A DNA stretch of 64,000 nucleotides, from the NCBI GenBank assembly GCA_004294095.1, contig RDZR01000029.1, positions 1 through 64,000 on the forward strand, given 5' to 3'. This stretch comes from Verrucomicrobiota bacterium. GTDB taxonomy: Bacteria > Verrucomicrobiota > Verrucomicrobiia > Verrucomicrobiales > Akkermansiaceae. Under the pieces are notes generated by a model, which was not told the origin of the DNA, made no database searches, and was given only the letters and a program-made list of their open reading frames with translations. Both the position numbers and the translations under genes were made by a program. Each line of letters starts with the position of its first letter. The first letter of the stretch is position 1. Shown here piece by piece: positions 55,445 through 64,000 of the stretch.

Positions 55445-56131
55445 ATGCCCATGAAAATGAATCACCTGATTTTCAGCGCAGCAGCCGTAATCGGCGCCCT
55501 AATGATGACATCATGCTCAGACATCAGCAGCACTGGCTCTGGTCTCGCGGCGTATCAAGCATATGATCGCCCAGCAAAATTGCCGAGCAATCCGGCGAAT
55601 GTGCGGGTTAAAGTTTCTTTGAGCAAACAGCGCACTTACGTGATGGAAGGCAATGAAATGCTGATGGTCATGCCAGTCTCGGTAGGCACTGCGAGCGATC
55701 CCACACCGAAGGGAAATTTCCGGATTATGAGCAAAGTGGTAAAGTATCGGGCCAATTCCCATGGCTACGCGTTCAAGGGGGATCAGGTGAAAAAAACCAA
55801 GCTCTCCGACAAGCCGGGTGGATGGTCATTCAAAGGCACGCCGATGCCGTATTGGGCAGAATTCGCGCCGCTTTATGGATTCCACACTGGCTGGATAAAG
55901 CACCATCCATGTTCACACGGATGCATCCGCATGCATGAAAATTTGGCACCTAAATTTTTCCAAATGGTGCGCGTTGGCACACCAGTCAACGTGGCCTACT
56001 CGCAGCCAGAAGATGCCACTCACGGGAAAATTCCGCTGCCTCCAGATGCTGGCCCGCTGCCAGATTATCCGGCATCGATGTATCTTGGTGATGGCTATTT
56101 CACTCGCCACAAGGCACCCAAATTCGATTGA
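55445..56131 (+). CDS. L,D-transpeptidase (YkuD) lipoprotein
   Basis: 228 residues. The signal ends in a lipobox (GALMMTSC). The YkuD domain spans about 50-190, starting VRVKVSLSKQRTYVMEGNEM. The catalytic motif is HPCSHGCIRMHENL, with the active Cys in SHGCIR. It cross-links peptidoglycan or attaches proteins to it. Follows the SmpA-like lipoprotein by 56 bp. The 220 bases after it (56132-56352) hold no gene. Confidence 0.9.
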   Translation: MPMKMNHLIFSAAAVIGALMMTSCSDISSTGSGLAAYQAYDRPAKLPSNPANVRVKVSLSKQRTYVMEGNEMLMVMPVSVGTASDPTPKGNFRIMSKVVKYRANSHGYAFKGDQVKKTKLSDKPGGWSFKGTPMPYWAEFAPLYGFHTGWIKHHPCSHGCIRMHENLAPKFFQMVRVGTPVNVAYSQPEDATHGKIPLPPDAGPLPDYPASMYLGDGYFTRHKAPKFD

Positions 56132-60935: not shown

Positions 60936-61367
60936 ATGAAAAAACTCTGCATTATTGCTACTACTCTCACCGTTCTAACAGGATTCGTCGCGGCTGATAT
61001 TCACGCGCCTCCAGGCTCCACCTACACCGCGACTCGGAAGCTTGGCCGCGCCCTCAGCAACATCGTTTATGGATTCATTGAAATTCCTGAACAGATCGTC
61101 CGCAAAGGTGACCAATACGGTCGCAAAGCTGGATTTAGCTATGGCGCAGTCGATGGCTCGCATCGTGCACTCCGCCGCCTTGGCTACGGCTTTTACGAGC
61201 TTTTCACTTTCACCTGCCCAACATACCGCGGCACGTTCAAGCCACCTTATGAGCGTTGTGGCGAAGACAACCGCATCGAGATGAATGTGCACGACGGTCT
61301 AAGCGAGTTCCCACCGGAGCTTGGCTTTGAAGGCTACTTTGATCATAGCCGCACTCAGCGCTATTGA
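60936..61367 (+). CDS. Exosortase-associated exported protein, TIGR04073 family
   Basis: 143 residues with a signal peptide (MKKLCIIATTLTVLTGFVAA). The mature part follows the TIGR04073 pattern: RKLGRALSNIVYGFIEIPEQ, then GAVDGSHRALRRLGYGFYELF and a terminal GFEGYFDH region. These small proteins are common in verrucomicrobial and related genomes, and their role is unknown. A strong terminator follows. Confidence 0.75.
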   Translation: MKKLCIIATTLTVLTGFVAADIHAPPGSTYTATRKLGRALSNIVYGFIEIPEQIVRKGDQYGRKAGFSYGAVDGSHRALRRLGYGFYELFTFTCPTYRGTFKPPYERCGEDNRIEMNVHDGLSEFPPELGFEGYFDHSRTQRY

Positions 61368-61436: not shown

Positions 61437-63914
61437 TTAGTCCGTCCTTTGATGAAGCTCTAAAACCCATTTCACTCCCGAGTCCGCACCTGTTAGATCG
61501 CGAGGATAGACTGCATTGCCGAGCGAGTGAAAAATGCGAGCGCCACCATGGATTTCTTGGCGCTGAATCACGTGAGGATGGGATCCCGCGATGATTGAAG
61601 CACCTCGCGCAACCAACCACCGCGCCCATTGGCGTTGTTGGTCATTGACGCGCGAGTCATATTCATTCCCACCGTGGACCATGACCACGATTTTTTCCTG
61701 AGCGATCATGGCATCTTTGAATCGTTGCTCGAGGATCTCGCGGTGGATCGGCAGCGCCGCGACTCCAGCATGATTGGAGCCTGCATTTCCGACGTCGAGA
61801 TAACTGATGCCAAACACGGCGAGTTTGATTCCATTGCATTCCATCCGCCATGGCTGGCAGGCTTGCTGTTGATTTTCGCCAGCACCAAAACTAGCGATTC
61901 CCGCCTTTTTCAAGGCCGCAATGCCATCGATGAGCCCATCAAGGCCCGCATCGGTGGCATGGTTATTTGCGAGCGAAACGGCATCGATTCCACGTGATTT
62001 TAACAAGCTCAAGCGATCGGGTGGGAAACGAAAATCGTAGCGTTGCAGCTCCCCCGCCCCGCTCATGGATGGGATTCCTTCTAAGTTTGCGATAAAAACG
62101 TCGGCATCATTTTTTTCAAAATGTTGGATCACTTCACGTTCCTCCGCAGCCAGCACGACGTCTCCTGCGAACGCGATTCGGCAGGTCTTTGGGGTCAGCG
62201 GAATTCGCAAGGAAAACACTGGGCGCCTATCGGTGAGTTTGGCCAACTCGACGATTTCAGGAAATCCACCCAAGTGATGGACGACGAGATCACTTCCATC
62301 TAACAAGCCCAGTGGTTCGCGATCTTGCCACAGCGCGGCAACGTGTTTTCCGAAGTCGATGGCAATGCCTGCTTCAATTTCAGCGGAACTGATTTCAAGC
62401 CGATCCGCGAGGCCAACGTCCGCCGCTTTTGTGGCGAGTTGTGCGCGCAAACGACCAGGATCGCCCCAATTCATTGGGATGCCATTTCGCCTCCATGCAT
62501 GAATCAGGAGATTGGAGCAATCTGCACCCCAGCCGGATTCCACACCTGATAGATCGCTGCAACTTACGTCGGCGATGCCGAAGACGTAGGGCATGCCGAA
62601 GCACTCGGAAAGAGCACCGCGAAATCCCTCGGCGAGACGAATGCGTAACTCGATGCCGGTGACTGGAAACCAACCATGCGCGGTTTCAACTTCGGCTTCG
62701 ATGAGGAAACGCCCGCCAGTCTCGGGCTTCCATTGTTGAGGATGCAATTGAAAATCCGACGTCTCGCCCAAGCTACGGCGTTTATCGTAGATCCAGCGGG
62801 CGGGTGAATTTGAAAAACTTTTTCCAAGACCGGTATCTGGCCACAAATCGTAGGCTTTTCTAACAGATTCCCGCAGATACCAGCGGGTTTTTCCGGTTGC
62901 GTCTAACGGAGTCTCAATCCGCAGCACGGGAGCTTCTTTGTTAGAAAATCGCCAAACCTCATCACAGTCGATCTCGCCGTTGGTTGGAACGATGCGTGAT
63001 TTACCAAACTCATTTTTCCATGGCGACGCCAGCCAGCTCCCGTTCCGGTCGGTGATGGTGAGTCGCTCGCCCAGCTCAACTAGCTTCATCCGCGTGGCGG
63101 TTGAGGTGCTGCCGAGAGTCCAACGTGGCAATGATTGCTTGGATTCGGCAGCTTTCAATGAGTGGTCCGGCCGATCATCCAACGAAGCATCCAGTTCCAA
63201 CTTCGCGCCGCGAGTGAACCGCACAGCATCCACAGCGAGCGAGACCAAGGCATCTGCCTCGGCATCGTCTGTGAGCCATGGTCGCGAAACGGCAAAGGCG
63301 ACTCCGGCGAGTCCCGGCCAATCCATCGCTTTTTGCCAAATTTCTTCGAAATTCGCGGCACGCTCCGCCGGATCCAATCCGGCGAAGAAATCAAGATCGA
63401 TGGCAAGGATGACCTTCCGCGACCCCGGATCCCACTTGCGGAATTTTGCTAAATCGAAAGTGGTCCATCGCTGCTCGAACGATCCGGCGCTTCGAGGCTC
63501 TACTTCGAGCCTACCATCTAACAATTGAGTGGCTTCCAACGTCATCGCGCCTCGCTGTTCGTCACTCAGCACCGGAGATGCCAGCCAACCTACATGATCA
63601 AGCGGACGCGGCATCAAGGGTTCGATCCAATTAAAAGGCTGCAAACGGCCACTTTGCCGCCATTCTTCGATGCGGAGCGCACGTTCTGTTTCTGTCGGCA
63701 CTCGCCGCAATTGCTCGCGCATTTCCTCCGAGCGCTCAACTGCCGATGCATCGGAATGCGCATCGATCAGAACGAGGAAATGGGACTCATCCAGATCGAA
63801 ATTGCGAGTGATCCAGCCCGCCGTCTCGGCGTGGTTATCCGCAAGGAATACCGGTAGCTCCTGCGCTGCGCAGGCAAGAGACGCGGCGATGAGAAAACTA
63901 ACGGGCAGCTTCAA
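61437..63914 (-). CDS. Exported three-domain protein: UPF0489-like, NlpC/P60-like, CapA-type
   Basis: 825 residues with a signal peptide (MKLPVSFLIAASLACA). Residues 20-250 resemble UPF0489 (arginase-like core: VFLADNHAETAGW, LVLIDAHSDAS, VILAIDLDFFAG). Residues about 430-575 look NlpC/P60-like: YVFGIADVSC, GWGADCSNLLIHAW with a candidate catalytic Cys, and DGSDLVVHHLGG with a candidate His. From residue 590 there is a CapA/PGA-synthesis metallophosphoesterase fold: AFAGDVVLA, IANLEGIP, SLANNHATDAG, VHGGNEYDSR, GSHPHV. I know no described protein with this trio. It overlaps the upstream partial gene by 17 bp. Confidence 0.75.
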   Translation of the reverse strand: MKLPVSFLIAASLACAAQELPVFLADNHAETAGWITRNFDLDESHFLVLIDAHSDASAVERSEEMREQLRRVPTETERALRIEEWRQSGRLQPFNWIEPLMPRPLDHVGWLASPVLSDEQRGAMTLEATQLLDGRLEVEPRSAGSFEQRWTTFDLAKFRKWDPGSRKVILAIDLDFFAGLDPAERAANFEEIWQKAMDWPGLAGVAFAVSRPWLTDDAEADALVSLAVDAVRFTRGAKLELDASLDDRPDHSLKAAESKQSLPRWTLGSTSTATRMKLVELGERLTITDRNGSWLASPWKNEFGKSRIVPTNGEIDCDEVWRFSNKEAPVLRIETPLDATGKTRWYLRESVRKAYDLWPDTGLGKSFSNSPARWIYDKRRSLGETSDFQLHPQQWKPETGGRFLIEAEVETAHGWFPVTGIELRIRLAEGFRGALSECFGMPYVFGIADVSCSDLSGVESGWGADCSNLLIHAWRRNGIPMNWGDPGRLRAQLATKAADVGLADRLEISSAEIEAGIAIDFGKHVAALWQDREPLGLLDGSDLVVHHLGGFPEIVELAKLTDRRPVFSLRIPLTPKTCRIAFAGDVVLAAEEREVIQHFEKNDADVFIANLEGIPSMSGAGELQRYDFRFPPDRLSLLKSRGIDAVSLANNHATDAGLDGLIDGIAALKKAGIASFGAGENQQQACQPWRMECNGIKLAVFGISYLDVGNAGSNHAGVAALPIHREILEQRFKDAMIAQEKIVVMVHGGNEYDSRVNDQQRQWARWLVARGASIIAGSHPHVIQRQEIHGGARIFHSLGNAVYPRDLTGADSGVKWVLELHQRTD

Positions 63915-64000
63915 TTTTTGGTTTTTTGTCGAGCTTGGCTTGAAGTCGGATGCCGCTGACGCAAAGATCCTCGAACTGGCTTCCAGGCCATACCTCCTCG
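63898..64000 (-). CDS. 3' end of a gene running off the window
   Basis: A minus-strand frame enters from the right edge and ends at TAG 63898-63900, overlapping the next gene's start by 17 bp. The 33 visible residues include EVWPGSQFEDLCVSGIRLQ, a pattern seen at the end of discoidin-like or NADase-type glycan-binding domains. It is probably in the same operon as the three-domain protein. The rest is not visible. Confidence 0.55.
   Translation of the reverse strand, partial: EEVWPGSQFEDLCVSGIRLQAKLDKKPKIEAAR

Follow-up and report, generated by a model that had tools for sequence, protein, structure and literature searches.

What does a bacterial protein do that joins an arginase-like, a papain-like and a CapA-type domain in one apparently exported chain, and what does it act on? 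The question is raised by an open reading frame (ORF) in a 64,000-nucleotide stretch, hereafter the window, which comprises bases 1-64,000 of the 73,753-base contig RDZR01000029.1 of a Verrucomicrobiota bacterium (Akkermansiaceae; GCA_004294095.1). The ORF has 825 codons, starts with TTG and lies on the minus strand at 61437-63914, encoding a multidomain fusion protein of 825 amino acids (aa). An earlier note, made from the sequence, had described it as a fusion of UPF0489-like, NlpC/P60-like and CapA-type domains that may process a gamma-linked glutamyl polymer at the cell surface. The fusion of three enzyme domains is confirmed here. We propose, with a probability of roughly 0.3, that the fusion enzyme tailors envelope proteins and that its resident substrate is the Arg-ended C-terminal tail of the protein encoded directly upstream, hereafter the partner. 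The features are the following:

61437..63914, minus strand: three-enzyme-domain fusion ORF with TTG start, from full-length relatives and predicted structure
63861..63914, minus strand: probable signal peptide, about residues 1-18 (MKLPVSFLIAASLACAAQ), from hydrophobic N-termini in relatives, by eye
63036..63860, minus strand: UPF0489/peptide-arginase-like domain, residues 19-293, from the VIA-align match to OspR; putative Mn ligands invariant across 35 relatives
62634..63008, minus strand: Ig/FN3-like beta-sandwich, residues 303-427; Z about 8-9 and a mid-domain model at 92.7 in the confidence measure given below
62199..62630, minus strand: NlpC/P60 papain-like domain, residues 429-572; Z 11.6 to 8er5, with C466, H524 and H546/H547
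61446..62192, minus strand: CapA (PGA_cap)/MslH-like calcineurin-fold domain, residues 575-823, from Pfam and the structure match to MslH
63898..64000, on to contig position 65214, minus strand: 3' end of the upstream partner gene (438 aa, ending in KIEAAR and a stop), overlapping the fusion by 17 nt

Relatives were sought in a species scan with one genome per species (84,980 species), from which the best 79 loci of 172 relatives were taken. Among these 79, 41 loci (L023-L063), all carrying Verrucomicrobiota titles, match across the protein, and the other 38 (L064-L101) match the CapA part alone. The match of L061 covers the first domain up to the contig end, and L054 is also cut by a contig end. 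In the family sample, full-length relatives are present in 14 of 145 genomes, the window's own included, and four more genomes match CapA alone. The phylum sample gave a match to the whole alignment in 112 of 387 genomes, with eight across the fusion, all in the class of the window. When the first two-thirds were used as query the same eight genomes were found, and CapA sequence always follows there. One of the eight is G375, whose CapA part is interrupted as described below. Of the 384 genomes in the class sample, 14 have the first two-thirds, with one fusion match each; a fifteenth genome (G592) has a weak 84-position match. At L056:7902-9089 we observed a 395-aa version of the fusion with both query ends matched and the middle seemingly deleted, which may be an assembly artefact.

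Active-site residues were counted in an alignment of 35 relatives, namely 30 of the 41 Verrucomicrobiota loci of the species scan and five from the family sample. Left out were L023, L025, L046, L048, L052, L053, L054, L056, L060, L061 and L063 (near-copies, contig-end or damaged loci, and some others). L028, which contains 31 X, was kept in this alignment and dropped from later alignments of 32 rows.

An AlphaFold2 model of the whole fusion, based on an alignment of 14 relatives, reached a mean predicted local distance difference test (pLDDT) of 84.9 and a predicted template modelling score of 0.84. Residues 296-578, predicted separately from 32 alignment rows, reached a pLDDT of 92.7. Along the protein the order is an arginase fold (19-293), an immunoglobulin (Ig)-like sandwich (303-427), NlpC/P60 (429-572) and a CapA/MslH-type domain (575-823). 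When the window protein alone was compared with Pfam, PGA_cap was the sole match at E<=1. The first two domains are barely seen by single-protein Pfam and NCBIfam searches and weakly by family-wise scans, so that the predicted structures are decisive. Profile searches of the single protein thus upheld the CapA assignment of the earlier note and gave a negative answer for the other two domains, which the predicted structures overturned; all three are now supported by their folds and by near-complete sets of catalytic residues.

For the first domain, VIA-align placed residues 19-293 of the predicted structure on the peptide arginase OspR (8brp) with Z 16.6, 210 aligned residues and a root mean square deviation (rmsd) of 3.7, showing the arginase alpha/beta/alpha fold. 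This program resolved the match, which Foldseek on the whole model gave at E 9.4e-3 only. Among all PDB sequences, a profile of the domain matched just two chains with E<=10: OspR at E 0.047 and the arginase RocF at E 2. Both alignments cover the first two metal motifs. The putative Mn ligands H28, D51, H53, D55, D173 and D175 are kept in 35 of 35 relatives. Their OspR counterparts are His12, Asp39, His41, Asp43, Asp165 and Asp167, of which the first four were aligned with HMMER and the last two were paired by motif (IDLD with LDIDLDYF), without residue alignment. The UPF0489 Pfam profile gave no match at E<=1 in the window protein alone, and NCBIfam pept_arginase stayed below its cut-off (E 0.13; 11.7 bits against 350). 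When relatives were scanned singly, UPF0489 was matched in 6 of 14 at E<=1 (best E 0.0015) and in 4 of 35 at E<=0.01. A search for other UPF0489 proteins found them in 0 of 28 genomes, but also in 0 of 14 control genomes, and so does not show absence. Peptide arginases convert peptidyl Arg to ornithine (Orn) at a dinuclear Mn site, and those described in two papers act in pathways for ribosomally synthesised and post-translationally modified peptides (PMC10028609, PMC12703449). With OspR and UPF0489 (PF12640, FlmR/OhkR) the domain shares the arginase fold, the DxHxD and IDLD-type motifs and all six putative Mn ligands. Unlike OspR, it is apparently exported, joined to two other enzymes and altered in the EEH(N/H)EAF motif, and it lacks a single-protein Pfam match.

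Residues 303-427 form a fourth module, for which VIA-align found matches of the Ig/FN3 sandwich type at Z about 8-9; this is a common arrangement and implies no function. The papain-like domain follows. Given the middle part, Foldseek found nothing at E<=0.001, and the fold was resolved by VIA-align: the predicted structure of residues 429-572 matches 8er5 with Z 11.6 and rmsd 2.2 over 110 aligned residues. The top 14 structures for this part are all of NlpC/P60 type (Z 11.6 to 8.9), most by their titles and a few presumably so, by their family. C466 is kept in 35 of 35 relatives, H524 in 34 of 35 and the third-position H546 in 35 of 35. The NLPC_P60 Pfam profile has no match at E<=1 in the window protein alone; in relatives scanned singly it was matched in 1 of 14 at E<=1 (E 0.0013) and in 3 of 35 at E<=0.01 (best 6.1e-4). 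The domain resembles NlpC/P60 peptidases (8er5, 3h41, Spr/MepS, RipB) in its fold, its Cys-His pair and a His as third residue. It differs from them in having DC[SA]N where the usual motif is DCSG, and in its position between the Ig-like module and CapA.

Peptidoglycan hydrolases are among the best NlpC/P60 matches, as are putative gamma-D-glutamyl-L-diamino acid endopeptidases. Together with the exported look of the protein, these matches would suit peptidoglycan or muropeptide processing. In such a role NlpC/P60 would be the hydrolase of gamma-D-Glu-diamino acid bonds, and trimming or modifying stem peptides would fall to the two metal domains. The arginase-like domain is then left without a role, as the usual peptidoglycan is not known to contain arginine, and the patchy spread (14 of 384 class genomes) is odd for a core wall function. 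We consider this explanation rather unlikely.

The third enzyme domain is the one seen most clearly. PGA_cap (PF09587) matches the window protein with E 1.8e-47 (162.4 bits, cut-off 27) and all 35 relatives at E<=0.01, and the NCBIfam MslH epimerase model matches the window protein at E 1.1e-10, below its cut-off. VIA-align matched residues 575-823 to MslH (8gq9) with Z 26.5, and MslH was also clear with Foldseek on the whole model. D585, E612, N651, H652, D655, H747 and H781 are kept in 35 of 35 relatives; these include equivalents of the MslH dyads His88/Asp91 and His295/Asp11 and of the ligands Glu44, Asn87 and His259. MslH uses a metal site to epimerise its peptide at the C-terminal residue (PMC10406935). 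The domain is thus like MslH, a lasso peptide C-terminal epimerase, and CapA/PGA_cap in its fold, its Pfam family and seven catalytic or ligand equivalents. It is unlike MslH in having Gly or Asp for His261 and, at an MslH Gly position, the His of GSHPH (25 of 35 relatives, Gly in 10), and in being part of an apparently exported fusion.

The earlier note had derived the gamma-glutamyl polymer from the CapA-type and NlpC/P60 domains, and PGA_cap in all 35 relatives and the neighbouring NlpC/P60 domain could be read that way. Beyond the domain names nothing spoke for it. A search for CapC (PF14102), which belongs to poly-gamma-glutamate synthesis, was positive in the Bacillus subtilis control and in 0 of 14 fusion genomes (CapB was not searched), and a Pfam scan of nine neighbouring ORFs showed no other capsule gene. 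The closest solved relatives, the peptide epimerase MslH and the peptide arginase OspR, speak rather for a peptide or a protein as substrate. Processing of such a polymer at the cell surface therefore appears highly improbable.

A candidate protein substrate is encoded next to the fusion. The TTG start sits 17 nt within the 3' end of a same-strand upstream gene (ttgaagctgcccgttag), most of which lies outside the window because the window ends at base 64,000 of 73,753. The partner is a DUF4424-like and NADase_transloc F5/8C-like protein with a signal-like N-terminus. Judged from the hydrophobic N-terminus MKLPVSFLIAASLACAAQ by eye, the fusion protein is apparently exported, and the partner is apparently exported as well. 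The check suggested earlier, whether the fusion recurs in related genomes beside the same upstream gene, came out positive: by gene clustering and a profile scan, 38 of 42 loci (37 of 41 and the window's own) have the partner immediately upstream of the fusion, in the same orientation.

NADase_transloc F5/8C (PF25302) was found in 19 of 20 and DUF4424 (PF14415) in 18 of 20 partners at E<=0.001. In these matches the partner is like both families, DUF4424 being represented by lpg2210. It differs from them in that its Pfam matches come without YARHG, its C-terminal tail conserves L-x3-P-x5-R, and its gene adjoins the fusion. Of the 384 class genomes, 14 contain strong partner matches (E below 1e-40), and these are exactly the 14 with the fusion; 22 further class genomes have weaker, mostly partial matches (best E 8.3e-27). 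Each of the 14 genomes has one fusion match and one to five strong partner copies, as for an enzyme with several substrates.

Beyond the partner a wider shared cluster was not found, the next gene family being present in 6 of 42 loci. This lack of shared neighbours bears on a further explanation, the uptake or degradation of exogenous arginine-rich peptides, in which the partner would bind peptides at the surface, the NlpC/P60 domain would act as peptidase and the arginase-like domain would release urea. Export of the enzyme, as read from its N-terminus, and the F5/8C-like domain of the partner would fit such a role. It leaves the terminal Arg described below unexplained, and we regard it as quite improbable.

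In L033, L052, L053 and L056 the partner genes are split by apparent frameshifts, and the Arg-ended 3' part is intact in each. Akkermansia glycaniphila (L047) has five tandem partner paralogues (L143-L147, G736:C18:5570-12635) on a contig equal in length (165,324) to that of the fusion, which by coordinates puts them about 9 kb upstream of it; four end in Arg and one in Glu.

The partner's tail shows which residue may matter. C-termini were counted where a copy reaches profile position 436 or beyond. Among 56 distinct stop-terminated C-termini, 55 end in Arg and one in Lys, and the last codons are CGT 15, CGA 15, CGC 11, CGG 10, AGG 2, AGA 2 and AAA 1, with all six Arg codons in use. Seven further copies added by hand end in Arg (six) and Glu (one), giving 61 of 63 Arg-ended copies. 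For comparison, 351 other ORFs were called mechanically in these loci, and 46 of them end in Arg. The overlap with the fusion gene was considered as the cause of the terminal Arg and ruled out by the use of all six codons and by the non-overlapping tandem copies, which stand apart from the fusion gene and are mostly Arg-ended.

A tree was built without the tail, after rows with fewer than 250 matched residues and repeated tails had been dropped; 56 fusion-genome rows and 11 controls were kept (L135 was dropped as a repeat). Over the 56 rows (tree length 35.55) the terminal residue changes 2 times, Pro at -7 also 2 times and Leu at -11 4 times, and each of the other eleven of the last 14 positions 10-27 times. 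The terminal Arg is conservation along the tree, not 63 independent events. The fusion-free controls were 12 distant DUF4424/F5-8C-like proteins of an Akkermansia-type genus (g3; L127-L137 and L139), which end in Arg (3), Lys (4) and Gln (5). Their 11 tree rows have a length of 0.51 with 2 terminal changes and lie at a branch of 3.14 from the fusion clade; their tails have Pro at -4 versus -7 in the partners, so the last residues of the two groups are not strictly equivalent.

In the partner an Arg is at the same time a C-terminus, and it is conserved unusually strictly in genomes that have the enzyme. Most economically, the tail of the partner would be the substrate of the fusion. The arginase-like domain would act on the terminal Arg, hydrolysing its guanidino group to leave Orn, the MslH-like CapA domain would bind or epimerise the same C-terminus, and the NlpC/P60 domain would either cleave a peptide bond in the tail, or in an envelope polymer joined to it, or transfer an acyl group to one of them. 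With a terminal Orn the partner would have a free amine in a side chain, much as Braun's lipoprotein has in its C-terminal Lys, which links it to peptidoglycan (PMC8263019). Covalent attachment of the partner to the envelope in a similar way is speculation. The full chemistry, in which the fusion would convert the encoded C-terminal Arg of its operon partner to (possibly D-) Orn and either the NlpC/P60 domain or an L,D-transpeptidase would use the amine to attach the partner covalently to peptidoglycan or to a different polymer of the envelope, we consider unlikely as a whole.

A docking role explains the conservation of the tail about as well. Here the Arg-ended tail would recruit or position the fusion enzyme, or be read by a sorting system; the enzyme would act on something else in the envelope, to which the partner would bind through its DUF4424-like and F5/8C-like domains. 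Co-occurrence and adjacency fit any complex, and Pro at -7 and Leu at -11 are kept too, like a binding motif. DUF4424 has been proposed (PMC3848476) to recognise substrates or to join multi-enzyme complexes, and the F5/8C-like domain is present in nearly every partner scanned. What docking fits less well is the number of strong partner copies, up to five for a single fusion match, and the fact that the kept residue is exactly the substrate residue of the nearest characterised fold relative. We hold docking and tailoring of the tail as equal, and both as tentative.

Several observations weigh against tailoring of the partner's tail. OspR Glu11, proposed to handle the guanidine (PMC10028609), corresponds to residue 27, which is Asn in 22, Ser in 12 and Asp in 1 of 35 relatives, so that the OspR motif is not kept there, Arg specificity is not assured, and simple Arg hydrolysis is made less likely. 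The position of the Ca ligand His261 of MslH (PMC10406935) is Gly in 34, Asp in 1 and His in 0 of 35, and L040 has Tyr at the NlpC His position. From their sequences the metal centres look alive; because of the changes at Glu11 and His261, specificity may differ from that of the model enzymes and need not match OspR or MslH. The partner is not adjacent in L030 (6.9 kb upstream of the fusion), L047 and L055 (on a contig of another length), and L054 begins at a contig end. Two copies are not Arg-ended: the adjacent copy of G375 (Lys) and one of the five of A. glycaniphila (Glu, with a degenerate tail). The fusion-free control is one genus with a different tail register, so that the link between Arg and fusion is weakly controlled, and the terminal Arg could serve binding alone. 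Finally, the G375 fusion (L107, G375:C117:106170-108701) has an in-frame TGA soon after the first CapA metal motif. The Lys-ended copy adjoins this interrupted fusion, and the second G375 partner copy ends in Arg; for the interruption and its Lys-ended neighbour, decay, sequencing error or chance are possible.

Each part of the system comes from a known family, and the exported combination and the Arg-ended partner appear undescribed in the literature searched; no description of the fusion or of the gene pair was found in these searches, which did not reach most subscription papers and bioRxiv. The data suggest that the gene pair is an unstudied protein-tailoring pair in the cell envelope of some Verrucomicrobia. 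A peptide arginase would here be exported and joined to papain-like and CapA/MslH-type domains. Tailoring of the tail, if true, would represent a new modification of envelope proteins and hint at a role of the CapA domain outside poly-gamma-glutamate synthesis. With the C-terminal Arg nearly invariant, the puzzle of the domains narrows to something that can be tested directly, the mass of a single protein at its C-terminus.

Two other genes in the window were recorded. The gene at 55445-56131 on the plus strand encodes a member of the YkuD L,D-transpeptidase family (E 9.5e-22) whose N-terminus, by eye, resembles that of a lipoprotein. Each of the 14 fusion genomes has at least 8 YkuD matches, a count that covers fusion genomes alone and argues neither way. 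At 60936-61367, on the plus strand, a gene of a family not common to another locus encodes an exosortase-system-associated TIGR04073 protein (E 1.1e-21) and adjoins the fusion in convergent orientation.
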